This document shows positions 11,956-64,000 of a stretch of DNA of 64,000 nucleotides, one piece after another. The DNA lies in contig NW_002476481.1 in the NCBI RefSeq assembly GCF_000189635.1, forward strand, positions 310,001 through 374,000, in the 5' to 3' direction. Within the stretch, counting starts at the first letter, position 1. The number at the start of each line of letters is the position of its first letter. The DNA is from Tetrahymena thermophila SB210 (taxonomy: Eukaryota > Ciliophora > Oligohymenophorea > Hymenostomatida > Tetrahymenidae). A program made the translations under genes and the position numbers. The notes under the pieces were generated by a model. The model was given only the letters and a program-made list of their open reading frames with translations. It did not search any database and was not told where the DNA came from.

Positions 11956-14900
11956 ATGTTGATATTATTTGGTTTCAATAAAGTAAGAGAAGAAAAGTCA
12001 ATTAAGATTTTTTAGATTAGAGCATTATTCATTATTCTGTTTGAATACTTTTTCATATCTTGCTGCAACTCTCAAACCCCTTTTAAAACTTAAATTACAT
12101 AATACCTATAGATTAAGGTAACTAACTAACTAAATATATTTAATCCTTTTATTTTCTTTCAAAATAAATAATTGCATCTTTAAAAGATTGATCTATTCTT
12201 GTTATTTTTCTAATTTAAATGAAACTATTTGATGAAACTAAAAGGAACATAATGCGATCCTATTTTAAAACTCTACTAGCTGGTACTATTGCGTATTTGA
12301 TATAGCAGGAAATCCTATTTAAATATAAACCCTAAATTAAATGTCTACAAGTGGCTCTTATTAAAGATTTGACTATATAATAGAGGTAAATTTATAATTT
12401 TATGATGATCATCATCAATAAATTTTTAAAAATTAATTAGCTAGATGTAATTTCAATTATATTTGATAGCTATGATTACATTCAATTGAAGTTCAATAGC
12501 ACATTTTATATAACTTCAATTTCTAGTTTCACATCAATCTAAACATAATGTTATACTTTCTTGCTTATAAAATATGTAAAAAAACAAATTTTATATGTTT
12601 GTTTTTTATTAAATTAATATTTACATTAATCAATTAAATAATTATAAAAATATAAAGCCAAACAAGTATTAGGTTTATTGCACTTATCTAATTGCTGATA
12701 ATATATTATAATTTGCCAATTCTTTTACCTAATTAGTACAATAAACAGGAAATACCATTTCTATCGTTAAATAAGTATATATTAATGTGTTCTTGTATAA
12801 GGACATAAACAAATCAAAGTATTATATTTTATGGAATGATAACACCTATGAAGTTTCATGGTATATCACATATGGTTGCACTTATTTTTTGTATATAGAT
12901 GTAAGCATTTTATATTAAAGCTAGAGACAAATTTTTTAAAAATTTTTATAACTTTTAAGCAATAAAATAATTTGTTTTAGTGTGACTCTTATCTTCTAGT
13001 TTTAAGCTTGAATAATAGTACATACCAAGCTACAATTGCTTATAAATAAAATGTAAATTTTGAAAAAACTACTCCTACTTTTTCTAAGCCTATTTACTTT
13101 CAGAGTGGTGTAATTATTTATCTTTTATAAATTACTTAAATTAATTAATAAATATTTTTAATAGCTTAAGGTGATTCTTACTTGTTCTAGTAACTGTGTT
13201 ACATGGTAAGCATGGAATATTATGAATTTAAATAGCATTTAAATGTCAGGAGATAGCCTTCAGTTTATTGATTATTCATATATCGTTTAATATTAAGTAA
13301 ATTTTATTAATTTTTTTCATTTCTAATATAAGTATGTATGCATAGAATAATATAGTAATTGGAGTTAATTATTATATAATAACTGAGGCTAGCGGGGGAA
13401 TATAAGTTAATTTATAGAGTAAAACAGTAATTAACTCTTAATACTATAATTATGATTGCAATACTGATGGATCTGGTTTTGTTCCTGATTCTTCAAAATA
13501 TGGCTTTGTTCCTTCATTAGTAAATTATTTATTTAAACCAAAGTCTTTACTTTTACTCTTTTACAAGTTTAATTAATTACCTTAATATTTTTTCAAAATA
13601 TTATAACAAGAACCAAACTTTTGCTGTTTACTCAAAGCAAAATAGTGTTTATTATTTAGCAAATTTTGTCGGATTATATGGCTTATATTTTCCACCTTGT
13701 TTAGTAAATTATTGTAGCATTTGCTAAATTTCTAACAAAAATAAATGCTAAACTTGCTTTTCTTCATACTTCTTAAATTACGATTACTCTTGTGTGTCTT
13801 AATGCCAATCCACATTTTAAGTAGATTCTAGCAAATAAATGTGTATTTGTGATTCGAATGCATCTTTGATAGCTAATCCTAATAATTCATAACAGTAAAA
13901 TTTTGATAAATAATATAATAAAGATACTATTATTTTTATATTAGATAAATTTGTTAGTGCAAATCAGGGTATTATATGAATATGAACAGCTTGTAAAAAC
14001 ATTATTTTTAAAAGATTACTTTAACTTTTTTTATATTTTTTAGTCAATGTTCAAGTAGCTGCCCAACAACCTATTTAATAGATACTTCAAATAAAACGTG
14101 TGTTTGTCCTCTATATTCTTCAGAAGTTGTTATTTAGAATTCAACGTAATTAATTTAGTTCAAATCTTTATAAAATTATATTTTATGAAATATTTATCCA
14201 AAAAATTTAGCTAAAAGCAATGTATCTGTAATAGTTCTTACTATAGATATAAGAGGTAATTTTCATTTTTATAAATAACTATTCCTCATAAAAATGAATA
14301 TTTATTAGCTAATGCATTTAGAATTGCCCTAGCACTTACATCTAAAGCAGTAATCCACCTGCTTGCTTTTGTGATTCAAATGCTCAAGAGATCTAAATTA
14401 ATTCTGTGTAGATAGAATTATAAATATTTCAAATGTTTTTAATTTTTAATTTTTAAAATAGATACATGTGCTAATGCAACAACGGCTATTTTTTAACATA
14501 CAAGTAATTAAATATTAATAAAATAGAAATATTTTACTAAAAATTTTTAATAAAAGTAATAAATGCAGCTAAAAATGCCCAGCAACTTATAAATCAGATA
14601 CTGCAAATTAAGTTTGTTTTTGTGATTAAAATTCCGTTTAAATAACAGATCCATAAAATTCATAGTAAACTAAAATTATTTTTATTTGCACTCCAATAAT
14701 TTAATTCATTTTTTACAAGAGCTTTTATATGCTAATGCAACAAAGGTTACTTCATGGACATAGAGTAATTTTCCAAAAAACAAAAGCAAATACTAAAGTA
14801 AGTTAAAATTTTAAATAAAAAAGTTCTAACTGTGGAATCACGTGCCCTTCTACTTACTTACAAAATTAATCAAACAATACTTGTAATTGCAGTTAATATG

Positions 14901-17900
14901 CTACAGTTGATTCAACGTATTTTTTTATTTGTATTTGATTTTTAAAAAAATCTTTTTATGATTGAATATAAATAAATAGGACAAAGAAATGTGTCTGTAG
15001 TTTAGGATATTACATGCAATACGAGTAATCTATTGATAATCTTATTAAAAGATAACATTTATTATATAAATAGCTTTAATTGTACTAATACTTGCTATGA
15101 TACATATGTTGCAGACAAAACAAGCAGAATATGTAATTGTCCACCTAACTCCAGTGAATAATTCAATATTTCATCAGGAAAGTATAATTTTATTTTTGTG
15201 AAATTGCTTTTTACTAATTTTTTTTACTCTAGAAAATTTTGCTAGTGTTTAAGTGGTTATAATTTATAACCAGATAAATTATCTTGCAGTTAATCATGCC
15301 CAAATACTTACTAAATTATTTAATAAGCTTGCAAATGTGATTCTAATTCCAAGGAGGCAGTCATAAATGGAGTGTAAATATTATTAAATCTATTTATTGT
15401 TGTTATTTAAAATTAATATATAAATATTAGTTCATAGTGTTAATGCAATGATGGCTATTATATGATAAATAAGTAAATTTATTTTATTTAATTTTCAATT
15501 TTAAAAATAGTATTTCATTTATTTATTTCCTTGCAATTCCAAGTTTAATACAACATAAAATTCTATTTAATTTTAATATTTTTTTTTAATAAAAGTTTTT
15601 GCTGTCTCCAAGATTAAGTCTTTTAAAAGTAAGTTAAATATCAAAATAAATCAATTTTTTTTAAAAAAAATTAAAATTTTATAGTAATTAATGCTAGAGT
15701 TGCAAAGATGGGACTTTCAAAGTGTAATTTTATTCATTTTTTCAAAAAATTTTTGGTAAATAATAATTTCTACTTTAAAAAAGTGATTCAACTACCTGCG
15801 GTTAATGCAAGAATTATTGTGAAATATGCACGAGTTTGACTAATTGTGTTCAATACAAAGTGTGCCCTAAAGGATAAATAATCGATTTAGATCTAGGTAT
15901 TTGTGTACCATGCATAAAAGATTTACAAAATAATATAGACTGTGTTTATAAGTGCTAGACGGGATAATATTTTGACTCTCTGAAATTAACGTGCAGTTAA
16001 TGCTTTTATTTAAATGGTAATTGTGTTGAGATTTGCCCAGATAATTACTATCAAGATCAAAAATCTACTAACTGTGTTAAGTGCAGCTCTCCTTTCTGTC
16101 AGAAATGTAAGGGTCCTCTTGACTCAGATTGTATTTAGTGTTATTCTGGACTAAGTCTTGGTTAATTTTCTTTATGTGGAGTCTGCTAAACTGATAATGG
16201 GTATTTTATAAAGTAAGCATTTTATAAATAAATTTAAAAATTAATAGTAAAGAAAATAAATATTTTAAAATATAAGGGATAACAAATGCATAGCCTGTTA
16301 AGATTAATGCTTATAATGCATAGATTAAAATACTTGTATTAAACAATTAATATGTAACCCAAATTAAATTTACAATCCTTCAATAAAAAAATGTTAAAAT
16401 TGTATTTAAGATTTATAAAATAATAATTAATGTGTTTTAGCATGCTAATACAATCAATTCTTTGATTCTAATGCTATGACTTGCAGTTAATGCTATTATT
16501 AATTTAACAAAATGTTCTATTAATGTTAAAAAACTTGTAATTAAGGTTTTTATCCTGATAATTAATTTTATTGCTAACCATGTGACGAATCATGTTAAAC
16601 TTGTAACAATCCTGGTCCTTAGAGCTGCTTAAAATGTAATTAAAATAGCATATTGACTAAATAAAATTCATGCATCAAATGTCTAATAGATAATGGTCAA
16701 TTCATAGAGTAATTTATAAAATTAATTCTAAATCAACAAAAAATTCAATTTTTAAACAATGTAAACTCTTTAATTTAAGAACTTAAGTAAAAAAGTAAAT
16801 TTTTAAAATATAGCTTTTGAAATAAGACCTTATTTATTGGAGGTATCTCAAATTAAGGAGGAAGTTAAAAAAGAGAGTTTACATTATTTTCATTTAATTT
16901 AATTAGTATAAAAAAATAAATAAATCTATTTTTAATCATTCTCAAAATTATTTGAAAAGAAATAAATTGATTAAAAATTTCTAGTTTACAATGCGAAATT
17001 AAAATTAATAATAAATTTTGAAATTTTTTTTATGGTGATTCAATAAAAATTATTATTTTTTTTATTTTAAAAGTGAAAATTATTAGTGTTAATACTGTCC
17101 TAAGAAATGTCTTAAATGCAGTGATAGCTCAAACTGTTAGAAATAACTGATTTGCAGTTCTAATACAATTTATGATGAAAGTAAAGATTAATGTGTTCCT
17201 TGTCTTTACGATTAAACTAACGATATGAAATGTGTTATAGAGTGCAAACCAAAGATACAGATTCTTAATTAAGGTAGTGTGTGCCAAAAATGCTATATTC
17301 AAGATGGTATTTGTTAGTTAAACTGCAATTATGGATATTACCCTGATGGTAGTATAAATTCAGATGTTTATGTTTGTTTGCCTTGCTAATCACCATGTAA
17401 AACATGCATTAAAAGTTCTAACTAATGCACTTCTTGTTCAAATGGTTTAGTTTTAAATGATAAATTCTAATGTGAATTATGCTAAATTAGTTAATATTAT
17501 GACAAACAAGCTAAATAATGTTAGCAATGTGATGCTTACTGTGCTAATTGTGATGGGCCATTGAAGAATAATTGCCTTTCTTGCTACAATGGGTTCATTT
17601 ACAACAGCAAAACAAAAGAATGTGAAACAGCTTCATAAGCTTAAGATAGCAATCTCACCGAAAATTTATATTTACACATGAATTGTATTAATATTTTTAA
17701 TAATAAATTATTTACTGAAATATATTTTAAAATCTTTTATAGGTACTCTTTCTGCAGAAGAATGCTAGACAAAATTAAATAATATAGCTGAAAATACTTA
17801 AATTTATGATAAACTTTAGATTACTGCTTTGGCTTTAAGTTTATTTTCTTGTTTAGTTTTACAAGATTAATGGATTGTTTATTGGAGCTTTATTTTGATG

Positions 17901-19116
17901 AAATAAGAAACAGGAAATTTTTTATTTACAGAAAATCTCAGCTATAATTTATTGGATTTTAGTTTTCTCAAATCAGATTTTTCTTTTAATATATTTAATT
18001 AATTTGAGTTTTAAAATCCTTTCAGATAATAGAAAGCTAATTTGACAAATAATGACACCATTTACATAGATTTAAAAAATGGTGTAAATTCCTCTTTAAA
18101 TGTGAATAGCATTTATTATTTATTTTCTGACAATTGTTTCTTTTAATCTTTAATTTGCTTTGGAGCGTCTGCATTTTTGATAGTAATAACTTTACTCAAA
18201 TCTAAAATTGAATTTCTAAAGAATAATTTAGCTTTTCTAGATTTAAGAATTATATTTTTAGTTTCTTCATTGAGTTCAAATATGATAATAGTTAGCATAG
18301 CAGTAGCAACAAAAAAATATAATATTAATGGAACTATTGATATATGTTTTTTAATGGTAATTGCTGCTTGGTACATATTCTTTTAATTTTTATTTGTTAA
18401 GAGTCTATATAACCATAACTTAAACTCACTAAGTCAAGACAAAAATAAGTCAAGCTTCAGCTCATTCTTACTGCTAGGACTTAATTGTAATAACTTTATA
18501 AGTAGATATTATTGGATTATCTTCGAACTGAGAAAAATAGCTTCAACAGCTATAATAATAATTTTTTCTTAATTTTAATAATCATAATTTTTGTATGGAT
18601 TTTAGCTGCTTTTCTTTTTAATTTATTCAGCCATTTTCTAGCTATTTTCAAATAAGTTGGTTAATTTAACATATATACTATTCATATTTTTGAACATAAT
18701 ATAGTCAGTCTTACTAGGTTTAATTTCAATGTATAGCAGTAGTGATAGTAACAAAGACCTAGTTGCAATATTTTATAAAAGTAAATTAATTTTTAGAATA
18801 AAAATAATTATTTATTTATTCATTTAATAATTTTGAAATAGTTTACTTTATAGCTATAGTAGCTTTTAATGGCCTATAAATAATAATTATGTTATTGCAT
18901 CAAGCATATTTCTTATTTTAGTGTGCTTTTTCAAAATATTTAAATAAAAACTATAAAAAGTACACAAAAGATGAAATTGTTATGGTACAATTCAAAATTG
19001 AAGATCCTTCTTAATTGCTTAATAATTATCAAAGCAAAATCTTTAATAAATAGCAATTTTTATCTAACTATCGAAAGATAAATCTTAGAAAAAAGTAATA
19101 ATATGATCTATTTTGA
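11956..19116 (+). CDS. large cysteine-rich polytopic membrane protein, divergent family member
   Basis: The ATG at 11956 opens a charged N-end followed by a hydrophobic segment (IRALFIILFEYFFISCC), taken as the signal peptide; exon 1 ends at 12117. The first exons (to about 13.6 kb) encode a non-cysteine ectodomain rich in Tyr, Ser and Asn. From 13.65 to 15.8 kb many short exons, often about 40-150 nt, each encode one cysteine unit of the form CxC...CPxTY (CPTTYLIDTSN, CPSTYIQS, CPATYKSD). Larger exons (15.8-17.7 kb) then give CxxC furin-like units. The end (17.75-19.1 kb) is a polytopic membrane module containing IIFELRKIASTAI, aligning with FEFRK/FEFKK of the two upstream genes. TGA lies at 19114-19116. 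The order signal-ectodomain-Cys-TM is the same as in the neighbours, but similarity is low, so it is an older family member or an independent relative. The smallest exons around 15.4-15.8 kb are uncertain. Confidence 0.8.
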
Positions 19117-24725: not shown

Positions 24726-24825
24726 NNNNNNNNNNNNNNNNNNNNNNNNNNNNNNNNNNNNNNNNNNNNNNNNNNNNNNNNNNNNNNNNNNNNNNNNNNN
24801 NNNNNNNNNNNNNNNNNNNNNNNNN
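24726..24825. other. assembly gap of 100 N
   Basis: Exactly 100 N. The 17 bases before the gap (24709-24725) and the 17 after it (24826-24842) are identical, so the two contig ends probably overlap and the gap is a placeholder. Confidence 0.97.
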
Positions 24826-40515: not shown

Positions 40516-43500
40516 TCATTATTCTATTTCTTCATCATAAGTTCCTTATCCTCTAAGTATAAAATCTACAGTGGGACCTTCTTCCACACTGATTCTATAT
40601 TTTGATTTGTACATTAAATTTCTTTTAGGCTGTTAAGATATTTTAATTTAATTTTAAAATTGGGATTCTCAATTTAAAAAATGTAATTTACCTTAAAATT
40701 TATCAATATTTACTAAGGAATTATTTCATTTTAGTGATTTTTCATAGTTGTTATCATAGTTGGCAAAGTCAAAGTTTCTGGAAGGCTCTTGACAGGTATT
40801 GAAGGACCATAAAGAAGACCCTATTAATAAACAAATTTAATCAATTTATTTTATTAAAAATTAAATATAATTAAAAATATTTTGAGAATAAAACTTAATT
40901 AAGTTTATCAAAAAATGTTCATTTTTAGATAATTTTTAATATTCCTTTTTTTTATTTTGTGGATGAAATTATATATTTAAATAAAAGGTAGAATTTTAGT
41001 TTACCTCAGTGACAGAAAACTGGAATACATCTTAATCATCAGTGATAGCATTATTTTCGTACTCCTCTTATGTCATAGTTGCAGTGCCAAGGAATTTTTT
41101 GAAAGGGTTTTTTATATGATGAATTTTCCATTTTGCAGGTACTTTGCTTATATTTGAAATGAATATGGCTATTCTTTTAACATTATTTATATGCACAGTT
41201 CCAAAATCTTGAACTTCTTAGCCTGGAATATCTTCGTGGCCAGAAGTATTTAGTTATATGAGAGGACGTAAAAGGTGGCCTTCTAAATCTATTTCTTATT
41301 CATCTCCATTTGTGTATTTGATTCTCAGTTTACCAAACTCATAATTTTTATATGTCATTGGCCAAGCTTCTTCATCATGAACTTTTTAACCTTTGTATTT
41401 AATCATAAGTTTCATATTTGTATTCTATTCAAGTGTATAAGTCATTGCAAGAGGTAACTTTCCTTAATTATTACTGCTTAGGGCTTTAGTAAGTGAACGC
41501 TATTATCTAATAATCATAGAATTCAACACATTTGTTTTGCTAGTTGAGTTGACATCGTCGAGCTCAAAAGGTCCTTCAACTTCTAAATCAAATTTTACAG
41601 TGGCAAATCCTTTATTTACCAAACAGATTTCCTTGTGTTCCTTTTTATTATCGAACAGAGCCCATTTTTCAAATGTCAAAATATGTTTTCCATTATGAGT
41701 AAGCTATTTTTTTAAAAAATGTATAAAACTATTTGTATTTTTATTTTTAAAGATAAAATAATCTTTTAGATATTTTTCACACTTTAAAGATTATTTTTTT
41801 GACAAAATAAAAACATTTTTGATGAATTTTTAGTGTTTTATTTTATTTGATGAATTAAAAAACTTAAAAAAAATAATTAAATAAATTTTTTCTAATTAAA
41901 TACAAGCTTATCTAAGTAAAGCTAAGGTTTCTAAGTATGTGAGAGGATCTATAATATTAACTTATCTATTTTTATATGGGATTCTTCTTATCCATCTTTT
42001 CCAATAATCACTGGTTATGCTATTAGAACAGAAATAAAATCATTCGTTTCATTTGTTTAAAATTTAACTTTGAAAACCTTTTCTTCTCTTCCATGAATTA
42101 TCATCCCGCTTTTTATATAAAAATAATATTTTTAAAAAAATTATTATGACAAAAAGGTTTATAAAAAACTAACTCTTAGTTCATTAGTTAAATAAATTAT
42201 GCAAAGAATTAAATTTATAATTTTATGATTTATCAAATATTTCAGTAATTTTTAGGCTAAATTAATTTTAAAGAAACTTAATTTTTAGTCACATGCATAA
42301 CTAAGATTAAACTCATTTTAGTTAAGATTAAATAAAATATTCATTTATTACCTAGGATCAATTAAAAAGGGTTGACCTGGAATAGCTTCAGGAGGAGAGA
42401 TAGGAACAAAATTTAATTTACATATATCGCTAGAACCCAATTCAGGATCAGAGATTTTAATATCAAAGAAATCTTGTTCTTAATTATTTGAGTTCAGATT
42501 ATACATTTTCCATTCAATTTTTACTGTTTTAGGACCAGTGTTTGTAATTTTAAATTCCCTCTCCACCATAGTTCCGTTTTTCATATAGTGACCTAAATCA
42601 AATACAGGGTAAGCTCCTTTATAGTTTATTCCTAACTAATAGGGACTTATAATTACTGGTGAACCTTGTACATCAACTATTGTTGGTATTTTTCTTGTCT
42701 CTAGTCCTTCAATTTCAAGGAAGAGATTATCTTCAATTTTACCACTAATGTCATTAAAAACTGTAATTTTTATTATTTACTCTTCGTGAGCTCTTAAATT
42801 TCCACTGCTAGGCTCACAGACTAAATTATTTTTATGAAAAATAAATTATTTAAAATATTTTTTAATAAAAATGGATTATTTACCAATTGCAAACCCTTTA
42901 TCATTTTATAGATGGAATCTTTATTCTTTATCAAGTTTTCTTGCTGCATTTAGTTCCTAACCTGCTTTTGAATGGAAATTTTTAACTTTTTCATGGTCAG
43001 CAGTAATAAGAGATACTGTGGTGATTCTGTTTGTTTTATTTTTGAGCTAGCTAATTCTATAATTCGATGTATTCACTAGAACTTTACTTTTTGTAAATGT
43101 ATTACTGTCATTAACTGCACTTTACATAGTAATTGAAGGATTTTATTAGTTGGATTTGAATTACTTAACCTTTTATTCTGGTGATTATAATTAATCCTAA
43201 ATGAGTTATGAATCTTAGACTTATTCTTAGTTATATTCATTTTCATTGTGTTCATGTTCTTCCTCATTAATTTGAGAAATATCAGGCTAGATGAATGATT
43301 AGGTTAGGTCTGCTTTGATTTTTGTAAACGGCTGATAATTTTCAGAATATATGTTAAATTTAGTATGAATTCCTGATGTATTTGATAGAATGACATATAT
43401 TGATTTAGGTTAATTAATCTAGCACCCAAAGAATTCCAGTTTATGAAGAGGTTCCTTTTTGAAATTAGTAGGGACAGTGTTTAAAGAAGTGTTATTAGCT

Positions 43501-46500
43501 TATTTACTGAGCTTCTATGTTATTTCGAAATTTTTGAACTCTTGTGTATTTCTCATGCTTTTAAGAAGCATACTGTTTTTGATATTACTTTTCATTATTA
43601 ATGTGTTAAATAAATTTGTATTGTCATTCTCTTCAGCTACCTTTAAATTCTACTTGAGTTCATTATCTTCCTAAACTATCATTCTTTCGAAGCTTACTGA
43701 AAGACCAAAAACTTTTGTGCTTATTTGAAAACCTAGAGGATATTTCATATCTTTAATATTGCAAACAAAAATATTATCTAAAGTTTCTCCCTTGTATACT
43801 ACTAAATTTATTTTGATAACTTTGTTTGTTTTTGGTTTTAATTTCCCTTTTTATGGTTCAAACTCTATTTTGTAAGCAGAAGTGTTTGGAATTTCCCATT
43901 CAAATTCAGCTTCGATATTACCTGTATAATTATTATTTTAAAAATGTTTAGAGTGAATCTAAAGAACATGAATCAATTTACCTAGATTTTGTAATTCTAT
44001 GTATTATTTGGAGTGTTTGCGGTCAATGATGTTAACGTTGTTAGCATAAATACAAGGGAAATCAAGAGATAATCTATTTAAACTGACTATTATTTTTTGA
44101 ATCTCTGCTTAAACATTTAAGAAGAGTGGATCTTTAGAATGTTCAACTTGTATTTCAAGAATTGTTTTGTACGATTCTGGCGCACCAGCTTTACACTTTA
44201 CATTAATAGCTCTCTTTTCATATGGTTAAATGAGAAGTGCTTACTCTTCTATTTCTAAAGAGCATTTCAAATGATGTTGCTCATACTCATCTTAATCAAG
44301 CAAAGTATCTGGACCATAAAGGTCAATAGTTCCAAGCGAGGTCAACTTTTGAATACTGTTTGAAATTCCCTTTTCTGATATGTATGCATATTTTTTAATA
44401 AATAAAACCAAAAATTGTGTTTATTACTTAATTTTTAATTAATATCTCTTATAGCTATTTCAACAGCTACAGGAGATGTATTTTCAATTATTAGCTTTGT
44501 TGTCTTATTTTCATATTGCCTCATTAATCCAAAATCTAGAATGGGCTAAGCTATCTTTATACTTGGACCTACAAAGTTTCCCAATACCTGTAATAATTAT
44601 TAAGTCCTTTAAAATATATTTATTTAGCTAAAAGTATTATTACTTCATAAGTAAGAGAATGACTAATATCAAAATTTATTTAAAGCATTGCTTTCTAGTT
44701 TTATCCAACTACATCTGATGAAAAAGTAACTTTGACTTCATACTTAGAATTTGGACCTATTGAACCCTTTTTATTTATATTAAAAATCTATTTTAATTTC
44801 CCAAACACATATTAATTTTAATTAATCTTATGAAAAATTTATATATATTAATTAAGAATAAATAATTACAGTGTCTTATTCCACAAAGCATATTACTGAC
44901 TCAGTAGTTATTATAGAAATATCAAAGTTTATTGTTGTAGCTGATTCGTTTTTCAAAACAAAAATATCTTGATATTCCTAATGAACTGCAAGAGGAGATG
45001 GAAAATATTGGAAAGGTTTATTTATGGAAACAGGTGCCCAAGTGCTCAGCCCTACTAGTTTTAGATCAAAATAGGCTACACTTGGCCTTGCTGTGTTACT
45101 TCCAACAAAACCAGGAAGATTATCTTTAGGTAGATTCTAGGGATGGGCTACCTTTGATGTCATGTATTGTTGAAGGTATGGAGAAACGTTTCTAATACTC
45201 TCAAATGGTATTTCATCAATAAAAAAAGTAGCGTTTTCAAAAATTGGAACAGGTTAATTAGTGAGAAAACTGAACTAGAATTCAACTATTTATTAAGGTT
45301 CGAATACACCTGAATTAGGAGTAATGCTAAAGCAATAGTCTTCTTTATTATCAAAAAGAGTTTGATAATCACTACCACCTGCATCGGTCTTGGCTGATTT
45401 TTAATCTTATTGAATCATATTATCTTTAAATAAATTCCAATGAAATTTAATTTCGACATCAGAAGTGTTTTTTAACAATAATTTTCTGGTTTTTTGAATT
45501 CCAGGAAGTGCATTTTCAAAGAACATCCTATTCATATTTTGTAGTTCTTGTTTAAAATCAGAAACCTTTAAGTCATCAACTCCGTAAATTGCTACTTCTG
45601 CCATATTACCACTTCCTTTTAAAGTATATTCTGCACTAGTGTGATTATCACATGCTAAAATAATTTTCTTAATTTCTTCACCTTCTTTCTCAGGAGTAAA
45701 TGTAACAACTATCTCTTATGTTTCTCCATGCTGCATATAAAATTCACATGGAAATAAAACAAAATTCCCAGTAAACAATGTGTCTTAGTCCATTTAATCA
45801 TCATCTTCTTCACTACTAAAAAATCTAAACCCACAATCTCCACCTTTGTTTGTTATCTTAAATACTTACTGGCTTCTGTCGCCTATCCAGCAACTTTTGC
45901 AATCTAAAACCTATGGCAAATTTAATTCAGGTGGATTCCTTTTAGCTTTGATTGGCACCTAATTAAATAATCAAGATAATTTTTTACTGATTTGATGCTA
46001 ACTAAAGGTTTGTATTTGTTTTGAGCAAATATAAAATAAATATTAATTTTTACAGTAAATGCATTTATTTCATTTATAATTTATAAGCCATCGTTCTGTT
46101 CAGCTAGAGATTAGGCATAATATTGAATAGTAAAAATAACACTCATGCCAGGTGCTACCATTCCTAGCTCTTAATTTTCTAAATATTTTTCATCTGACTC
46201 ACTCTTTGGAAGAGGAGTAGGATATTTTACTTCCTTGATAGAAAAACAGCTCCTATAAAAATAAAATAGATTTTTGATAAAAAAATGAAAGGATAAAATT
46301 TTCAACTAAAATCTTAATTATATTTTATTATTAATTTCATATGATAGATTTTATTTAATTATTTATTTATTTAAGTAAGAATATTTGGAAAAGATAACTT
46401 ACAATTAAGGAGGAAGGAACTTAATTCTTCGTGAAACACTATCTATGTTAGTAATATTAAGCTTAATTTCATATATTTTATCGATTTCATATTCTTAAAA

Positions 46501-47096
46501 GATAACTTGCTCTGGGTGTGCTCTAAATGGACACTCTTTATCATTCATATCAACTATAACTCCCTAATATATAAATCATAAAGATAATTAAGTACATAAA
46601 TAATGTGTAACTATGAATAAGTTAATATTGAAATTTTGCATTATTTAATGATAAAATTAAGAATTTTAATGAGCTTTATTATGAATTTTATCTTGAAAAT
46701 TGAATGTCATTTTTTATTATTTACGGGCTTTGTATTTAAATCAGTGAATTATATTGGAGGGCGGATAACACGGAAACGAGGGTTCTTCATAAATGTTATC
46801 TTTTTATTCATATTTTTTATAATCTTTTGGTTAATTAGCTTGTCTTAAATGCTCATTTCGTTGACATAATCAGGCCTTTTAATAATTTTGCTTTATCCTT
46901 AATTCTACGTTGCTTCTAATTCTTTTTCCATTGTATCTCCAGACTTAAAATCAAAGTCCTTACTAGTAATCAAATCCTCTCCATTTTTTTGAGATCTAAC
47001 ACTATCATTATATGCTTAAATTCTATTAGGAGCAGCTGACTTTTTTTAAACTGAAGCAGCTGCTTTCTAAGGACTATTTTTTAAAATTGACGCCAT
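40516..47096 (-). CDS. multi-ASH/MSP-domain axonemal (central-apparatus type) protein, DLEC1/HYDIN/CFAP74-like
   Basis: About 13 exons encoding roughly 1,700 residues. First exons: 46725-47096, 46403-46563, 46054-46252 and 44870-45958; phases agree. The ATG at 47096 opens a Ser/Ala/Lys-rich leader (MASILKNSPQKAAASVQKK). From the second exon the protein is a series of Ig-like ASH/MSP-type modules: FRAHPEQVIFQEYEIDKIY...LNITNIDSVSRRIKFLPPQ, then VAPGMSVIFTIQYY, and later EIVVTFTPEKEGEE...GSGNMAE. It ends with IPQQILINFKPKRNLMYKSK and FILRGQGTYDEEIEQ, then TGA at 40516-40518. Modules of this pattern recur in HYDIN, DLEC1/FAP81, CFAP47, CFAP65 and CFAP74, which build the central pair apparatus and related axonemal structures. 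The length is close to DLEC1 (about 1,750 aa), but choosing the exact orthologue would need a profile search. Role: ciliary structure and motility. Middle exon borders (41.7-44.8 kb) are approximate. Confidence 0.8.
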
Positions 47097-48395
47097 AATT
47101 TGTAAAATTTAAGTTTATCTTTAAAAATAAATTTAAGTGCAATCTATCTATATATGTCTTTCAACCTAATTAATTATTTTATTGAGTTAGTAAAGAATGC
47201 AGCTACTATTTGTATTGATTGTTCAGCTTAATAAATTATATATTAAATAAATCTGTTATTTATCAATATATCTATCTAATTCAATATTGATAATTTATTT
47301 AATAACATATTAAAGCATTTATCAATAATAAATATAATCAAACTCAATTAAAACCACATTCAATTCTTTTTTGAATATTTTTTTTGGTTTAAATTAAAAT
47401 TATTCTAAAATTATTTTCATTAATTTTTTCTTTCCATCTTTCAATAAATTAAATTAGGTATTTTATTAAAAACTTAAAAAAATAAATAAACATTTTAAAT
47501 CTATCTTTTAACTATTCAAATCAAATAATTTAATTTAGTTTTACAAAAAAGAATTTAAATTTTTTTATCATTTAAATTTGTTAACTAAAAAAAATAAATT
47601 TAAATTTAATTAAAATTTATTTTAAATTTGAAATGGTTTTCAATTTTTTTGTTTCATACTTTTTTATTTTAATTGGACAAATTTTTTCATTTTTAATAGA
47701 TTTAAATATTAAAATCACACCAAAATATTAATAATGTTTAAAAAAAATTTTTTTTATCAAAAGTAAATTTTATTTTAATATTCAATTAGAAATTAAATTT
47801 TTTAATCATTTATTCATTAGTCCTAAAAAACAAAATTGTAATATTTTTAATTTTCTTGAAAATATTTTTAAATTTAATATTAATTTTTGATTATTTTTTA
47901 AGAAGAAGCTTTTAATACCAAAAATTGTTCATAAAGGATGAAGAAAATAAATTAATGTAAATATGTTACATAATCAATCAAAATATTGTAAATCACAATA
48001 TTTAAGAGAAATTATTCACTTTTAATTTTAAAATATTATATTTTTGTTAATTTTTAATTTTTAAAAAGCTCTCATTTTACTTTAAAGAAAATAGATATAT
48101 ATTTATATATAATTAGCATGCAAGTAATCAATAAGCAATTAATACTTTACTCTAAGGCGTATTTTCCATTAATTATAGCTTTCAACAAACTAAGTAATTT
48201 GTAAATTATCAATCCTTAACATAATTTATTTATTTTTATAATGTATTTATTTTCCTATTATTTAATAGATTTTTTAGAAGGTTAGCAAAACGAACTAATG
48301 AAAGAATCAATATATGAATACGTTGAATAAGATTCTTTTAGATATAGTTAGTTATATTCAATATAAATTTTGTATTTTAAGATAAACAAGATATC
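47097..48395. other. intergenic, containing left part of tandem duplication
   Basis: AT-rich DNA upstream of the ASH-protein gene. From about 47630 onward it is recognisably similar to 48870-49600 (see the tandem duplication). No separate gene seen. Confidence 0.6.
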
Positions 48396-50064
48396 TCAAA
48401 GATGTTCTTGTAATTCATCTTGAAGAGTGTCTTCTGAAATACAATATGAAGAAATAGGTCTTCCATTAAACATTCTTCCATCAATATTCTTTGCACAATT
48501 TACTGCGCCAGTAGCATCATTAAACAATACAAATACAGAACCACAAGGACTACGAATTGCTACAAATACTTCAACAACATCGCCATACTTTTTGCATTCC
48601 TCTAATAAATAATTTTAATAAAATATTTAGTATTAACTTAACTCATTTAATATGAATGAGTTTTTTAATCAATTTAAACATTTAATTACCACTAACATCT
48701 TCTTTAAGATCTGTGAAGAAATCGGGATCGTTTTAGAAATCAGTTTCTGTAAACATATTTACTAATACTATATAGTTGGTGGGCAACAAACTTGTAGGAG
48801 GTCTATTTCCAACCATGAAGTTATATTGAAATAAAGGATCCTAAGCTATATTTTTATTTTAAATTTGAAATAGATTTTTATTTTTTATTTCATTCCTTTT
48901 TATTCTATTCGTTCATTTTTAATATAGAATAAAATAATCAATTCACACAAAAATATTTTAATGAATTTTTTCTGATAAAAATTATATTTTATTTTACTAT
49001 TGAGTTAAAAATTAAATTTTTAAAACATTAAATTAAAAATTTGTTAGTCCAAAGAAACCAAATTGTAATCTTTTTAAAAAGCAGCAATAAATGCCAAAAG
49101 TTTCTCAAAAAATAAAAATAGTAAATAAATAATAAGTATTTATGATTATGAATAAATTATGAACAAAATAAATTAATGAAAATATGTTATGTTGATAACA
49201 TCAACCAATCAATATATCGTAAATCACAAAATTTAAGAGACAATATTTACTTTTAATTTTAAAATATTATATTTATGTTAATTTTTAAAAAGCACTCTTT
49301 TTACTTTAAAGATAATAGATATATATTTATATATAATTAGCAAAAGTAATCAATAAGCAATAACTACTTTACTCTAAGGCGTATTTTTCATTAATTGTAG
49401 CTTTCAACAAACTAAGTAATTTCTAATTATCAATCCTTAACTTAATTTATTTATATTTAGAATACATTTATTTACCTATTATTTAATAGATTATATTTTG
49501 CAAGCTAGTAAATTGAACTAATGAATGAATGAATGCTTTGAATAAGGTGCTTTTAGATATAGTTAGTTATATTCAATATAAATTTTGTATTTTATGATAA
49601 ACAAATCTCTCAGAGATGTTCTTGTAATTCATCTTGTAGAGTATCTTCTGAAATACAATAAGAAGAAATAGGTCTTCCATTAAACATTCTTCCATCCATA
49701 TTCTTTGCACAAGTAACTGCACCAACAGCATCATTAAACAATACAAATACAGAACCACAAGGACTACGAATTGCTACAAATACTTCAACAACATCACCAT
49801 ACTTTTTGCATTCCTCTAATAAATAATTATAATAAAATATTTAGTATTAACTTAACTAATTTAATATGAATAAGTTTTTTGATCAATTAAATCATTTAAT
49901 TACCACTAACATCTTCTTTAAGATCTGCAAAGAAAGAGGGATCATTTTTGAAATCACTTTCTGCAAACATATTTACTAATACTATATAGTTGGTGGGCAA
50001 CAAACTTGTAGGAGGTCTATTTCCAGCCATGAAGTTATTTTGAATTTAAGGATTCTGAGCTATA
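47630..50064. repeat. tandem duplication, unit about 1.2 kb, spanning 3' exons of the splicing-factor gene
   Basis: The left unit (about 47630-48852) and right unit (about 48855-50064) align through 3' flank, last exon, intron and the 3' half of the preceding exon. The coding parts are the most similar: last exons 48396-48601 and 49610-49815 differ at roughly 11 of 206 bases by eye. Flanks keep long shared words (agatatagttagttatat, actttactctaaggcgtatt) with indels. The units meet at an attttaaatttgaaat word found near 47625 and 48860. Confidence 0.92.
48396..48845 (-). CDS. duplicated UHM (RRM-like) terminal exon pair, possible alternative last exons of the RBM39-like gene
   Basis: Two exons, 48690-48845 and 48396-48601, are the downstream copy of the last part of the splicing-factor gene. 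The frame is intact: QDPLFQYNFMVGNRPP...VLVNMFTETDFQNDP, splice, then ECKKYGDVVEVFVAIRSPCG...DGRMFNGRPISSYC...LQEHL and TGA at 48396-48398. The last exon differs from the main copy at three residues (V/T, T/N, M/I); the preceding exon has more changes. A GT donor at 48689 and AG acceptors at both exon starts are present. The 5' acceptor (aaaatatag before 48845) lies near the duplication seam. It is in phase with the donor at 50340 of the main gene (one base carried over), so splicing past 49610-50221 would give an in-frame protein with a shortened linker. It has no obvious start of its own, so an unexpressed gene fragment is the alternative. Confidence 0.6.
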
Positions 50065-51633
50065 TTCAAGCTTGGTAAATTGGCTATACCAGGAATAGGA
50101 AGTGGAGTGTTTACAGTAGGCTAAGCAGCTGTTTCAGTTCCAGGCACAGAAAGAGTAGAGTTACCTGCTAATTTCTTCATTAATTCCAGCTTTTTGGCTG
50201 CTGAGTGCAAGAAAACTTTATCTAATATATTAATAAATAAATAAATAAATAAATAAATATAAAATTTAAAGTATGTTTTGCGTCTATTTATTTTTTATCA
50301 CAAAAATCTTTTATATTTTTTATCTAATAATTTGCTTACTTTCATTCTGATCTAAATCAATGTTATCTTGAGTTTGAGTTCCTCCTAAACTTGAAGGGAA
50401 AAGAGGTTGAACGGGAGCGAAAGATAAATTAACTGCTACAGGAGTAACAGAAATCTTTTGATCTTATAATTTAAATCCATTCATCATCTTAATAGCTTCA
50501 TGAGCATCACTTTTCTTTTTGAAAGTCAAGTAACCAAAACCAAGGCATTTTCCTTAAGCATTAACAGGCAATTCAACAGATTCAATATCACCGTATTTTT
50601 AGAATATATCCTTTAAATCTTATTCGTTCATATCAGCTAGTTTTCCATTTAAACCACCAACAAAAACTTTAACAGGACCTTCTTGTAACTTGGCTAATTG
50701 CTCTTTTAAGGCTTCTGCTCTTTGTCTCTTAATTTCTCTTTTCATTTAACAATTATTGATTTTAAAAAAAATATAACTTTAATTTCAACAATGAATAGAA
50801 ACAAGATATGAATTAGTATTTTAAAAAAATAAATGATAAAAAGTATTTTAATTAAATACCTTGCAGCTAAGGCAGCTCTGTTCTTTTCGGCTTATGAATG
50901 CTGGATTCTCACTTCAGACATTGGCACTTCTTCACCTTTTAAGAAGAAAGGTTTAGTGTCAGCAGCCAAAGCTTTGTCAACATCTTCCTTAATATAAAAT
51001 TCAGCATAAGCAACACCCTTAGACTTCTTAGTCTTTTAATCTCTAATGAGCTTAATATCTCTAACTTTAGAAGCACCACAATGTTTGGTTAAGTAACGCC
51101 AAATATCTTTTTCCTCAGCCTTTGAAGGTAGCTAATAAATCATAACAGTTAAATCTTCTCTGGCAGCATCTTCTGCATCCTTGTCTAATGATAAAAAAAA
51201 TTATATATTAGTGATATTTTGATTATTGATATTAGCTTGAATTATTTTTAGAGTAATTTAATAAATAAAATTTACTTAATTTTTCAATTTATTGCTCAAG
51301 CTCCCTCTTTTTTAGCTCGATTCTTTCGACAGATGTTAGCTGTCTTGTTTCTTAAGACTTCGAGATAGCCTCTTAGCTCTATTTTTCTTCAGTTTTTCTT
51401 TCAGAAGAGTGATGGTGCTTCTTGTCCTTCTTTGATGATCTGGAACGATGCTTTTTGCTTTTTTTGCCAGATCTGGATCTGGATCTACTGCTATGTTTCT
51501 TTTTGCTTTTCTTCTTGTTGGATCTTGATCTGCTTTTTGATTTATGATGCTTCTTCTTTTTGCTCTTTTTTTCATCTTTGTCATCTCTAATGTCCCCGTT
51601 GGAACCGTTTTCTAATCCTTGATTTGCCTATTA
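49610..51633 (-). CDS. SR-type splicing factor, RBM39 (CAPER)/U2AF-like, RS domain + RRM1 + RRM2 + UHM; 5' end not fixed
   Basis: Exons 51276-51633, 50860-51184, 50340-50737, 49904-50221 and 49610-49815 are joined in consistent phase. The protein starts with an RS/KS region (for example KSKSRSRSNKKKSKKKHSS), then ERIELKKRELEQQIEKLN. RRM1 follows (LTVMIYQLPSK...KSKGVAYAEF) and ends in RIQHSQAEKNRAA, a hallmark of the RBM39/CC1-like family (QASQAEKNRAA). RRM2 is VKVFVGGLNGK...CLGFGYLTF. A linker leads to a UHM: NYIVLVNMFAESDF, EECKKYGDVVEVFV and the RxF motif in DGRMFNGR. UHMs bind ULM tryptophan peptides of SF3B1/U2AF-type factors. TGA is at 49610-49612. Position 51633 follows an AG acceptor-like site and there is no in-frame ATG in this exon, so a first coding exon lies upstream. 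One candidate is an ATG near 51.82 kb (MLNKLQHLINDSDIK), but its donor is weak. Role: nuclear pre-mRNA splicing. Confidence 0.9.
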
Positions 51634-54224: not shown

Positions 54225-57200
54225 ATGAATCGAATCGCTTTTGCTTTATTAGCGATTAGTTGTATATTAATTGGTGGAGTCACTGCTATCAAAACAGTAG
54301 ACAACCAAAAGAAAGTTAACAAGCTCAACTTGCTTTTACCCGAGTTATATGAAGATTTAGAAATTAGAGCACCTTAATTCCTTTTGGAAGCCAGCAATGG
54401 TTGTTATACATGGTCCTCTTCTAGACCAGACTTCCTTCAAATAAATGGAATTAGTGATGAAGTTAATCCTGTTTGTGAATCTACAGCATTAGTTAAGCTC
54501 AATAACATCCGTCCTTACGACAATATCATTTGGATTTCTGTTACTGATAAGGGTAAATAGTTTTTATTAACTACTAATTTCATTAGGCATTTAAAGTAGA
54601 GATTGCTCAAATTAATTTTAGAAAAGAAAAAATAAATACAATTATTAATATTAAGCGTTTAGTAAACCTTTGGAATTATAGTAGATAGGCTATGTTAATT
54701 TTACTTTTAGAGATCTTATGAAAAATAGCAAAGATATAAATGCCTTTTTGCGATTACTTAATATTTATTAAATATTTGTTTTAAAAAAATATAGATACAG
54801 GAGATGTCATGAGAGTAGAATCTAAAATAGCTAAAGTCTAAAAGATTGAAATTCTAACAAAGCTCAGAACTATCGATGTTGGTGATTTATCTGTCCTCGA
54901 AATCATTGGTTATGATAAGGAAGGTAACTCCTTTTCCTCTTTAGAAGGTTTGCGCTTTGAGTGGAGCATCTAATAAGAAGAAAACATCTTTGAGTTTATC
55001 ACCTTCAAGGTAAATTTTTTTTTTTGTTTTCTAGAATTCATAAATATGAAGAAAGAAAATGAGTAAGTAAGAAATAAATCAATTAATAAGTCTCAAAGAG
55101 AGAATAAGTGCAATAGCATAAAATGATTTTTGGTTTATTTGTAGTTCTTGCAAAAAGAAAACTTAAAAATAAACTGTTTGCCTCTTTTATTGAAATTATT
55201 TATTAATTTCGCAGTAGATTCTTTAAAGATACAAATTTCAAAAATTTCTCCTTTGTAATAAGCAATAAAAACGAAATATAAATTCAATATACTTTTTAAC
55301 TTATTTTAATTCTTAATAATATGAGCATAGCTATCTAATCTATTAATTCATTCATTTATCAATTAATCTATTGATCTACTTTCTAAATTAATAAAAAAAC
55401 AAATTATTTTTTATCTTTCTAATACTTTTTTAACAGAATTCATTAAATATTCCAGATATTTAAATTTTTAAGGCAGTTTTTAAATTTTTTTAAAGAGACA
55501 CTCTTTTCTCTGTCAATAATTTTTTTTTATTCAAGCAAATTATTTGATAACTTATTTTTTAAACTCACTCTAATTTTAAACTTTTTGATTGATTTGTAAA
55601 ATCAAAATCTTTTTCTTTCTTCTTAAAAAATTTTATTTTTATTTAATAAAACTAAAATTAATTTAATGAAATTAGGAATCTAAGATCAACACTAGTCCTT
55701 TGAGAAAGAAATTAGAAGGCTACCATTTTTAGACTGATATTATTGTCATCAAGGCTTTACAGACAGGTAAGGCTGATGTTACTGTCAAGATTAAAGAATT
55801 AGGATAGACTTTGGTTTCACTTCCAGTCACTTTGTATGCTATTGATAAGTTTGACATCTATCCTGGTAATGATTTGTATCTCCTTCCTCAAACAATCCTC
55901 TAGTATGAATTATACTTCACTAAGAAAGCCACAGGTAATTAAAATTTTTTACTATGAAAAAAATATTTAAATATTTTCCAAATTATTTTGCAGATAACAA
56001 AATTAAACTCCCAAGCAACGACTATAACTGGAAGATTTTAGATGAAAAAATTGGTTAAATTCACTAAAATGGCTAGCTCTTAACTTTTGAAGAAAAGAGA
56101 GATGTACCTACTAAGGTTATAGTTAGACCCTCTAAGCAAGTAGATTATCAAGTAACTTCTACTGTTACTGTTGTTTATCCTCATTCTCTTGAAATTTTCA
56201 GTCGCGAATACACTGCTGATTCTTGGGAATCAGCAAGAAGAGGATACTATCAAGAAATATTTGAAAAGTCCACCCACTTCGTAAGAAACCGTGAATACTA
56301 TCTTAGAGTTGTTTTATATGATATCAACAAAAATGAAATTAAAATTACACCTAATGTCAGAATAGATGTAAACCTAACCAAACTAAATAAAAATTATAAA
56401 TTTAAATATTTTTTTTATTTTTAAAGGTTATTATTGATAAGACCAAGTTTGATGTGATCGAACAAAGAAACCACGAATTAAGAGTGAGACCCAAAGTTTT
56501 AACCAACAGCACAGTTGTTGCTGCTTAACTTATTGAAGTTAAAGGTAAAACTCAAAACTCTGAAACTATTTGGAAACCAGAAAAGGAAATAAAAAATAGA
56601 GTAAACATCTCAATAGTAATGCCCCTTAAGCTCTTCAAGCCTGGAAATTTCATCCACTTGCCCCTCCATTCAGAGTAAATTTTCAAATTAAAGGTCGTTG
56701 GTGGTTCTGGATAATATGAATGGGATACATCAAATACAACTATTGCTGTTACTTCTTACAATCGTGTTCACCCTAAATCAATAGGTTCTGCTAAGTTACA
56801 TGTTAGTGATAAGATGAATGAAAAGAACTTTGATGAAATCGAAGTAAAAATTTTATAAAAATAATAATCAAATATTTTTTTTATCATCGATATTAATCTA
56901 AACTAATTTTTCTATCCATAAAATAGGTCATTGTTAGCAATGTGTTGAGAGCTGCACCATTAGAACAAATGAAGGAAGTTCTTATCAATGGTTATGAATC
57001 TACTTTCGCTATTGCTTATCCTGAGTTAGGAAGCTAGAGATTCTCAAATTGTTCAGCACTAGCCTTTTCAGTAGAAGAAAATTCTTTCTATAGTAGCTCG
57101 GCAGAAAGATTCCAAACTTATGAAGAAATTCTTAAAGATTTAAATAAGTTAATGGCAGATAATTAATTTATTAAGTAAGAATTGAAGAAAAATGAATTGA

Positions 57201-60200
57201 AAAGCTTTAATGAGGAATTCAAAGAGTATATCTAAAGTAGATCAGTTACTTAAGAAGAAATCGACAATGTTCACTATGAATATAATAACTACGGTTACTG
57301 TAGTGCCTTTAGAATTCTTGCTAAGGAAGCAGGAGAATACCGTGCTCGTATCTATGCTGAAGGTTTACAACTCTAAGAAAATGTTGATTAGTACATTTCA
57401 GTTAAGGTCTTGTTGCCTTTTAAAAATATCATCAACCCTAAATATTTCAGCTTCTTTAAGAAAGACGAAGTTATTATTTCTATGGGTTCTTCCTACAATT
57501 GGCGTTTCAAGCATGGTCCTTCTCAATGGGAATCATGGCGTAAAATTAATGTTAACACTCAAGTAAATCTTAAGTAAAAGGGATGTGCAGGACAAGAAGG
57601 TCTCATTTCTAATATCCCTAAGTAAACCACTCAAGGTAATATCACTCAATCTTATCAACTTACTTGTGGATTATGTAAGACTGATAAAGAAAACTCTTAC
57701 ACCATATCCATTTCAGCTTAAAATGAAGCTGATGCTAAGCTCCCTCGTCCTTTGGTCTTACACAACGAATTGATTGTTTGGTGTAACGTTCCCCATGCTT
57801 TATACATTTACCCTTTGACATCTCCTAACTAGCGTGACAGTGATGACGAATCTGTTCTTTTGTAACATGCTAAAACCTCTAAGTTCAATAAATATCATTT
57901 GTAAACTGAAATGAACCATTTCTTCTTCACTTAAGTTTTCGATTCTCGTAGTCTTCCTTTTGCAAACTACACTTCCTTGGCTATTGGCTGGAAGATCACT
58001 ACTAGTGAATGCGGTCCTCTAACAAACCTCCACTTTAGTGAATACAAGGACCAGTTCAAGCTTAGTTTGAATACTGAGTAGATTCCTTAGAAAAAAGATG
58101 AGTTCCGTAAATATGAATTGAACACCTGTGTAAATTTCGCTAATTAACAAAACACTGATGTTATTAAAATCTAAGCTACAAGTGCTACTTTGGAAGATCC
58201 TTAGACTTCTCCTGTTAGTTTCTCAGTAAATGACGAAATTCTTATCGCAGTCTCTAAGAATGTAGAATGTGATCCAGTTGAATCTCTTTTATATAATCAC
58301 AAAGAAAATAAATACGTAATGAATCTTATGTATGGTTCTGGATAGTATATTATTCACAATAATGCAACAGATGTTGTCTAACATAAATATCATGATTCAT
58401 AAAGTAAGTTAGCCTTTGTTACCTTCAAGAACGGTGTTTCTTCTTTGAAAATTGAAGATTCTCTCTAAATAGGTGCTAAGAGAATCGAATGTCGTGTTTA
58501 AGTCCGTGACCCTGCTCGTATTGATTTACGTTTAATTCAAGACATTATCCCTGTAGGTGCATACACCTAGGCTGTCGTTGAAGTTTATGATGATTAAGGA
58601 AGAAAATACACTAACTCCTAAGTCGCTCTTATGGATATTTATTTGGAAAGTGATACTTCTGATAATGAAGGAATTACCTTGGCTATAAAGAGAGATCCCC
58701 TCAACGGACATAAATTCTCTATTGATGGTAAGAAGAGAGGTAATTACAGATTAGTAGCTGTCTTAAAGAGTGGTAGCGCCAGTACTTACAATGACCCACG
58801 TTATGCTAACTTCTTTATCATAAAGAGTAACTCCCTTGATCTTGAGGTCTTCCCTCCTCTTGAAGCTTATCCTCCTAAAATCATTTTGCATCCAAACTGT
58901 CAAACATCTCTTTAACTCATAGGTGGTCCTTCTGATTCAACTCGTGTTCGTTACAGCTCAGAGACATAAAACCACCAAGGTAGCCAAAAGTTGATTGATT
59001 TGAACTAACTTGACACTAAGCTCTATGACATCAGAGCATTAGAAAAAGCTAAAGGCAATTCTACTTTAGAATTCTTTATTCATCTTCAACCAAATAACAC
59101 CTTGCTTAGCAAAATCACTGTCCCTGTCACAGTGTAAAACATTGATGACGTTAAGATTTTTGGTATGAACGACCGTACTCTTCATTAATCTACAACTGTC
59201 AGACTTATTGCTCAAAGTAATTTATCATTTTTATTGATCAAAACAACAAGCACAATTCTTATTAAAAAATTAATTTATTTTTAATTTTCTTTAAAAAAAG
59301 TGTTCATTCAAGGTGAATTGATGACTGTTGGTATCTGTCCATTATCAATTAGCTGGTAGTCTAAGCTCGAAGGTGTTTTGAGAATTTCCCAAAACATCTC
59401 TCCTGAAATTTTATCTGCTGCAGATATTGAATCCTCAAATAAAAACTAAGTTAGCATTGGTGATTCTCATTTATATGCCGTAAACGCCACTGCAGTTGAT
59501 GTTGGTGTTGCTGAAATCGAGCTTACTGTTACTTTTATTGGATAAAAGTCTCATGTTAGAACTGTAGCAAGAATTGATGTCATCAATCCTCTTTCTATTC
59601 CTATTCCTACTTATGTTGCTTATTCCGATATTAAGCCTTCTATCTTGTTGATTCCTCCCAAGAGTGGTTACTTTATGCCAATTTAAAACCCTCTTAAATA
59701 CACTTTTGTTACTGCTTGTGGCTCAAGTGATCAATACGAAACCGTTAGAGTTGATTAGAATGGTCATATTACCACTGGTGATAAAAAGGGTGTCTCTACT
59801 CATATTAGAGCTGTTTCTAATTCTCTTTAACAAGAAATCATGAGTGTTCACGTTTACACTACAAGTATTTATTCATTATTTGTAGAGAATTCCCATGAAG
59901 TCATCAACATGTAAGTTGAAGGTGAAACCACTCTTTAAGTTAGAATGTAGGATTTCCTTGGCAGATCATTCCCTACAAGACTTGTAAATAAATTTAAAAA
60001 TAATTTTTAAAATAAATAAAATTTATTTATTTAAATAAAACTTGTTTACAAACAAAAATATTATCTGATCTGACTACAATTAAATTTATTATTAAAAAAA
60101 TAGGACAATGTTCATTTAAGAGTTAAAGTTACAAACACAAAGGTACTTTCTGCTACAATCAGCGATGGTAGCTTATTAAATTTGAGAGCTATTTCTTCTG

Positions 60201-61577
60201 GACACTCAATATGTATTGTCTATCTTGAAGCTAACCCTCATATCTATGATATTTTCTTCATTAATGTTGGGTCTATAGTATCTCCTTCCTCACCAGTATT
60301 TGTACACACTGGAGGTTCAGTTTAATTCTCTGTACTACAAGCTAAGAGCAGTGGAGATAGATACAATTCTAAGAGATGGTCTAGCTCAAATGAAAATGTA
60401 TTAACTATTGACAGCAATAGAGGACTTGCTAAAGCTCACCAACCTGGAGAAGTTTTGGTATAATACAATGACGTTGTTGTTTACAAATCTAAGGTTATTG
60501 TCCAAGAAGTAGGTGAAATAGTTAGAGGAGATATCGGAAAAAATAATGTAATATTAAATTCTGAATTTTAAGAGTTATTTTAAATATATTTTTTGTAAAC
60601 AGAGATTAACAAATGAACCCTCTCATCCAGATTACGCTACTAGATATGTTATCCCCTTCTAAATCTTCTTGAAGGATAGAAGTGGTAGTAAAGAACTCTT
60701 GAAGAGATTAGAAAATTCTATTGATAAAAACCCTATAAACAATAACTTATCTTGGTCTTGCAAGGCTGAACACTCTGAATGGTTCCAAGTTTAAGGAGAA
60801 GTAATTGACCTTCCAAATGGTAACTAGCAAGCCTAGTGCATTGTAAAATTGGTAGAACCTAATAACTATTAGACTATGGTAAAATAATAAATAAAGCGTA
60901 TGCAAATAATTTTAATTATTTCATTTATTAAAAACAGAACATGCCACCCTCTTTGATCTTAATTACCACAATTTCTAGTAGAAATTAAGATGCTAAATTC
61001 TCTTTCGTCTAAGAGCATAAATTTAATGATGTTATTTGGAAGATTCACCTTTCAAACAATGAAAAATATGTAATAAATATTTAAAAATTTGAAAAAATGA
61101 ATTAAATGATTTTAATTAATTAATTAATTATAAAAAAGATTGAGTTGAATAGAGCCATGAACAAATAGGAAATATATATCCAAACTACTTTCCCTCTTGA
61201 TATTTCTTTCGGTGGAAACGATATCAAGCCTCACGTGATCTCTAAATTCGTAAATACTTAAAAATATTTCTAATGCATATTTAATTAAAATAACTAATAT
61301 TTTCCATATTAAAATAAAACAGTTTGAACAAAAGAGTGTATAAAAGATTGAAATTTAAATTAGTCCTGAATTCAACCAAAATATTGACAATAAAATATAT
61401 GTCAAGCACCCATTAACTGGCTAGACTGAAGCCATTAGAGTCATTTATGATCCTGAAAGCTCAACACCTCCTACTCCTGGTGATTCCTCTCCATTAACTT
61501 GGACTGATTACCTCATTACAATAATCTTGATTTGTGTAACAATTATTGTTGTCTAAAACCTCTCTAAAAACAAATGA
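54225..61577 (+). CDS. NUP210: nuclear pore membrane glycoprotein 210 (gp210)
   Basis: About 12 exons (first: 54225-54552, 54795-55009, 55676-55934, 55994-56367, 56427-56843, then a long one from 56927 to about 59216), giving roughly 1,900 residues, close to vertebrate gp210 (about 1,890). The ATG at 54225 starts a clear signal peptide (MNRIAFALLAISCILIGG); an in-frame upstream ATG at 54120 would bury it and was not used. Family landmarks: NKLNLLLPELYED, FLLEASNGCYTWSSSRPD (gp210 LEAS-GCY-W-S-RP), then VLEIIGYDKEGNSFSSLEG and FEWSI. A BIG2-type Ig segment near the C-end has WSSSNENVLTIDSNRG. A single C-terminal TM helix (LITIILICVTIIVV) is followed by a very short tail (QNLSKNK) and TGA at 61575-61577. 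gp210 forms the lumenal ring of the nuclear pore. In vertebrates the tail is longer; here it is only about seven residues. Intron 2 (55010-55675, 666 bp) is long for this gene. Confidence 0.93.

Positions 61578-62459: not shown

Positions 62460-64000
<1,541 letters not shown>

Follow-up and report, generated by a model that had tools for sequence, protein, structure and literature searches.

Copying of the 3' end of an RBM39/CC1-like splicing-factor gene by a partial tandem duplication has left a second complete UHM-coding unit beyond the gene's normal stop. The duplication was found in a window of 64,000 nt, the whole stretch of DNA that was analysed. We give about an even chance to the reading that the downstream unit (copy B) is a relaxed leftover of this event, kept similar to the upstream unit (copy A) by gene conversion.

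The product of the host gene (approximately 51627-49610, minus strand) comprises an RS-rich region followed by RRM1, RRM2, a linker and a UHM. The initial annotation had called it RBM39/U2AF-like. The first half of that name stands, the protein from exon 2 on scoring 271.6 bits with TIGR01622 (SF-CC1; cut-off 231.65). The second half does not, as the whole protein scored 64.9 bits with TIGR01642 for the U2AF large subunit (cut-off 310.3). The SF-CC1 match starts in exon 2, and copy A by itself suffices for a full match. The linker between RRM2 and the UHM matched Pfam RBM39linker weakly (E 0.0018; 19.4 bits, under the cut-off of 23).

A gene model, trained on the window itself, was run on each strand; long open frames and the exons and splice sites of the host gene served as seeds, and the run yielded 10 genes with 106 introns. 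The model is biased toward short introns, requires an ATG, and has no option for alternative splicing. The exons that it placed upstream of exon 2 (2, 288 and 1 nt) were not credible. The window looks like ciliate macronuclear sequence: TAA and TAG occur within its frames as glutamine codons, and the modelled introns are mainly short. Among the other genes, the models at 147-4243 and 5927-18531 (both plus strand) have similar beginnings as judged by eye (NNWFELKEQNALIV, NKYWFYLPESNALIV), and both are rich in cysteine. The latter has 47 exons, and the former, of which 654 of 860 aa were tested, gave a Pfam VSP match of 41.9 bits. The two resemble tandem paralogues that encode a surface-type protein. 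Downstream of copy B, the gene at 40516-47096 (minus strand) matches Ig-like domains of the HYDIN/CFAP65/DLEC1/CFAP74 type (first 700 of 1,698 aa tested). A NUP210-type protein is encoded at 54225-61577 (plus strand; first 593 of 1,928 aa tested), and 62460-63988 (minus strand) encodes a cytochrome P450 (231.5 bits).

Table 1. Features of the host gene and of its duplicated 3' end (window coordinates)
Feature	Position	Strand	Remarks
Exon 2	51276-51627	-	RS-rich region
Exon 3	50860-51184	-	RRM1
Exon 4	50340-50737	-	RRM2; donor after 50340, phase 1
Penultimate exon A	49904-50221	-	Linker and N-terminal half of UHM; duplicated portion 50065-49904
Last exon A	49610-49815	-	C-terminal half of UHM; TGA 49612-49610
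Duplication unit, copy A	48853-50065	-	
Duplication unit, copy B	47616-48851	-	
Outer part of copy A	48853-49163	-	27% different from B, past the step near 49160
Penultimate-exon copy B	48690-48845	-	5' end cut by the junction; AG acceptor directly before 48845
Intron between B exons	48602-48689	-	88 nt, as in A
Last-exon copy B	48396-48601	-	With TGA
Separate two-exon gene as drawn by the ab initio gene model	48396-48816	-	ATG 48816

The 1.2-kb unit recurs head-to-tail (Table 1), with 82.8% identity over 1,259 aligned columns (E 0.0). The initial annotation had described a duplication of the last exon and half of the preceding one. These are indeed included, and the unit also takes in the intron and about 760 nt of 3' flank, which that description omitted. 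As it begins within the penultimate exon, copy B is without the 5' half of that exon. Open frames, GT-AG introns and the TGA are present in both copies, as had been stated. Within the window, further copies of the unit amounted to three short matches only (38-44 columns), and no tRNA (ARAGORN) or Rfam family (at gathering scores) was found across it. In the 3' flank, a stretch of 83 nt (49344-49426 against 48122-48204) is 94% identical between the copies and has no Rfam match at gathering score; in the 100 nt just before it (49509-49410), 13 of 98 sites differ.

Copy B encodes a complete UHM. Both copies matched the solved UHM sequences of HTATSF1, RBM39, U2AF65 and SPF45. In a profile built from five UHMs B scored 64.8 bits and A 63.2, and B stayed above A when each of the five templates was omitted in turn. 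B also outscored A for 20 of the 21 PDB sequences matched by A, the exception (9if7) being an RRM protein. With the UHM units alone, SF-CC1 gave 73.8 bits for B and 70.2 for A, U2AF_lg was about even (35.6 against 35.8), and Pfam RRM_1 favoured A (27.7 against 25.3 for B). The R-x-F loop and helix A of UHMs have a role in ULM binding. The R-x-F motif (GRMFNG) and the acidic helix A (DLKEDVSEECKKYG) are kept, identical in A and B. Hence the suggestion that the two copies would allow the gene to change its partner choice finds no direct support.

The coding parts of A and B differ at 25 positions, 10 synonymous and 15 nonsynonymous, with 13 replaced codons, so that all ratios rest on small counts. 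Calculation of dN/dS between the exon copies, which had been proposed as a check, gave 0.37 overall, 0.89 for the penultimate-exon part and 0.14 for the last exon. In the last exon seven of the 11 differences are synonymous and the other four cause three amino-acid changes, in agreement with the initial annotation. The penultimate-exon part is not mainly synonymous (11 nonsynonymous against 3 synonymous changes).

Relatives of the protein were sought by single-protein scans of viral contigs and genome contigs, which returned 8 and 127 pattern matches, none of them confirmed. As no relative was found, the changes could not be attributed to one copy or the other, and for want of an outgroup A (in one case B) was used as stand-in for the ancestor in simulations. 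Under a calibration on noncoding divergence, constraining A and leaving B free led to 14.4-15.5 expected replaced codons, close to the 13 observed. With omega at 0.1-0.2 on both copies 2.7-5.2 were expected, and 13 was reached in none of 400 runs at each setting; omega 0.3 on both gave 7.7 (P 0.022 for the observed 13). The noncoding calibration predicted about 5 synonymous differences, against 10 observed. When dS was used for calibration instead, a free B led to 21.5-23.3 replaced codons, with counts of 13 or below rare (P 0.003 and 0.000); a fit was obtained with intermediate constraint.

Simulations were also run for the scores. Random drift of A by 25 changes gave a mean of 47.3 bits, and B's score was reached in 0.14% of stop-free runs. 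The strong reading of this figure, with all 25 changes on B, was given up, for it weakened to about 0.01-0.05 once A was allowed to evolve too. With A at omega 0.1 and B free, B exceeded A by at least 1.6 in 1.0-3.7% of runs; with HTATSF1 omitted from the profile the excess was at least 2.0 in 1.6-5.1%. Thus a constrained A and a free B produced a B this good in 1.0-5.1% of stop-free runs, or in 1.9-7.8% of the runs with 11-15 amino-acid differences (settings with at least 294 such runs). With B at omega 0.5 the proportion was 5.5-12.3%, and this value was not rejected. In the reverse drift, with B as the start, A's score was reached in 8.4% of runs. The placement of the 8 amino-acid changes in the whole UHM gave P 0.012; by part, it gave 0.024 for the penultimate-exon part (5 changes) and 0.13 for the last exon. 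Copy B has no frameshift or TGA in 360 nt; the missing TGA by itself is weak evidence, as 69% of runs with 25 changes stay free of TGA. On selection the evidence points both ways: on one calibration a free B accounts for the number of replacements, but their placement is compatible with a UHM (P approximately 0.01-0.08 if B is taken as free). Overall, copy B would be relaxed and is perhaps not altogether free.

Divergence between A and B is 8.1% up to A coordinate ~49164 and 27.5% past it. A change point at 49164 brought a log-likelihood gain of 33.0, and none of 300 permutations did as well; in the 3' noncoding sequence alone the step fell at 49158 (42 of 439 against 82 of 296 differences). 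The intron is as divergent as the exons (6 of 88 sites against 25 of 368), a pattern that conversion or recency would give. We infer that gene conversion homogenised the inner ~900 bp, intron included. Alternatively, the 3' flank could be under constraint in both copies as a shared 3' UTR. It may be noted that the conserved stretch of about 440 nt would then be longer than 83% of T. thermophila 3' UTRs, which are reported to be under 300 bp (PMC3274533).

The leftover reading would therefore begin with the partial tandem duplication of the gene's 3' end, after which gene conversion between the copies would have homogenised the inner part; such conversion would help to account for copy B still looking open. 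The normal protein of the gene would end at copy A, where the gene model also terminates the host gene. Copy B would be relaxed, with at most weak constraint, and the main mRNA would not require it, while its plausible intron could yield low-level alternative 3' ends. In favour of this reading, the introns that reach B would measure 1,302-1,494 nt, against a modelled maximum of 915 nt (n=106); the count of replaced codons under the noncoding calibration, the dN/dS of the penultimate-exon copy and the divergence pattern of intron and flank also speak for it. Counted against it, B is at least as good a UHM as A by the profile, PDB and SF-CC1 scores, so good a B is uncommon in runs that leave it free, the dS calibration makes so few replacements rare for a free B, and the frame is intact. 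The preference of Pfam RRM_1 for A and the runs with B at omega 0.5 point the other way.

The two copies present homologous in-frame exons with splice sites, the arrangement of alternative last exons, and three uses of copy B are in frame or open: splicing 50340/48845, splicing 49904/48601, and a start at ATG 48816. The first was put forward in the initial annotation, by which exon 4 would be joined either to exon pair A or to pair B. The AG before 48845 is indeed in phase with the donor after 50340, although a phase match is expected by chance in one case of three. Contrary to what had been supposed, the AG was not gained by mutation, for copy A carries the same TATAG followed by C inside its exon (next base 50059). 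Since this identical AG was already exonic in copy A, what the junction supplied is the AT-rich context of the 48845 site, which scored 5.58 as an acceptor against 2.41 for the exonic AG of copy A. A context that arrived with the junction required no selection, which argues against the proposal. The motif stands at the 75th percentile of the 106 modelled acceptors, and of the window's 6,350 AGs 1.4% reach its score. Against the proposal, T makes up just 30% of the 20 nt upstream, with about 10% of modelled introns at or below this value.

Counted from exon 2, the predicted 50340/48845 isoform has 478 aa and the form ending in A 532 aa, a net shortening of 54 residues. The isoform still passes the SF-CC1 cut-off (251.0 bits), and the changes in the UHM part of penultimate exon B remain compatible with a UHM, as seen above. 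The linkers of the two forms had been described as slightly different; the isoform would instead lose the putative RBM39-type linker, which speaks against it. Its intron of 1,494 nt would exceed every modelled one, in a model that favours short introns, and the splice would skip a complete short intron and a terminal exon, though Tetrahymena is thought to rely mostly on intron definition (PMC3274533). Mutually exclusive last exons (50340/50221 against 50340/48845), and with them the isoform mechanism of the initial annotation, are possible from the sequence, and we rate this use as unlikely. Autoregulation by splicing, also suggested there, would be an analogy with human RBM39, which works via a poison exon and not via last exons. 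In the boldest form of the reading that copy B is a functional second UHM, the junction would have made a 3' splice site in one step, by setting AT-rich flank before a formerly exonic AG. If this is true, the factor would be able to select which UHM it carries and to dispense with its linker.

An ordinary alternative last exon would arise if the donor after 49904, at the end of penultimate exon A, were used with the acceptor of last exon B at 48601, so that last exon A is skipped. The protein would have 532 aa from exon 2 on and differ from the A form at three residues. The product is in frame with 272.6 bits on SF-CC1, the splice sites do not differ from copy A's (donor 5.44, acceptor 4.95), and the dN/dS in the last exon is low beside that in the penultimate-exon copy. 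However, the counts are small, and for the last exon taken by itself the placement falls short of significance. The intron would again exceed the longest modelled (1,302 against 915 nt), and the UHM portion of the truncated penultimate exon B shows no visible decay, although such a product would have no use for it. We regard this use as improbable.

Copy B could also be a separate UHM-only gene of 110 aa, transcribed from the AT-rich gap, whose product might rival the full-length factor in binding ULM partners. Exactly this gene was drawn by the gene model, though by one that demands an ATG and cannot draw alternative splicing. Only one short intron is required, and B alone matches the C-terminal part of SF-CC1, as given above. 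An A-rich run is usual in the start context; that of ATG 48816 (AACTTCATGG) is without one. A search of 49609-48846 for an in-phase private first exon for B (at most 150 nt, donor at least median) gave 0 candidates, against 0.8 on average in shuffled controls. We hold this use to be about as improbable.

That copy B is really used in some one of these three ways, summed, falls a little short of an even chance. That it acts as a functional second UHM, whether by giving the RBM39-like factor another C-terminus or by encoding a separate UHM-only protein, we would propose only tentatively. An assembly artefact or mis-joined alleles would be very improbable, because the copies are 17% different, with many indels, and the duplicated region is free of N, the one 100-N gap of the window lying elsewhere (24726-24825).

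If copy B is used, a ciliate splicing factor would have two interchangeable UHMs, and the locus would be a clean example of a duplication junction creating a ready-made acceptor. If it is unused, it illustrates how a partial tandem duplication can remain open where only TGA stops translation and conversion may repair the copies. Open frames would then be weak evidence of function in such a genome.

Among the matches listed in the Tetrahymena literature, no title or abstract opening described this gene, by which we do not claim that it is absent from print. RNA sequencing of T. thermophila is reported to have detected alternative splicing in 5.2% of genes, with 1,474 events (PMC3274533). The catalogue has four event classes, alternative last exons not among them; such events could therefore have been missed. 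In a study of Paramecium bursaria mutually exclusive exons are among the event types counted, intron retention and alternative 3' sites being those most often subject to regulation (PMC12862383).

The RS region, RRM1, RRM2 and UHM are common to the host gene and RBM39/CC1-like factors, and the second UHM unit downstream sets it apart. In human RBM39, self-regulation is reported to act through exon 2b, a poison exon, and a contact with U2 snRNP has been proposed for the third RRM, the UHM (PMC10477243). Terminal-exon duplications in Drosophila (pip, PGRP-LC) are reported to be mutually exclusive (PMC9013439). They too consist of head-to-tail copies at the gene's 3' end, whereas in the present unit half of one exon was copied along with the following intron and the last exon. 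In Tetrahymena LRR genes, arrays of 90-bp exons have expanded, which is partly ascribed to unequal crossing over (PMC6564038). There, as here, exon-intron units were multiplied; those arrays are large and belong to another gene family, whereas here there is a single extra copy of the 3' end.
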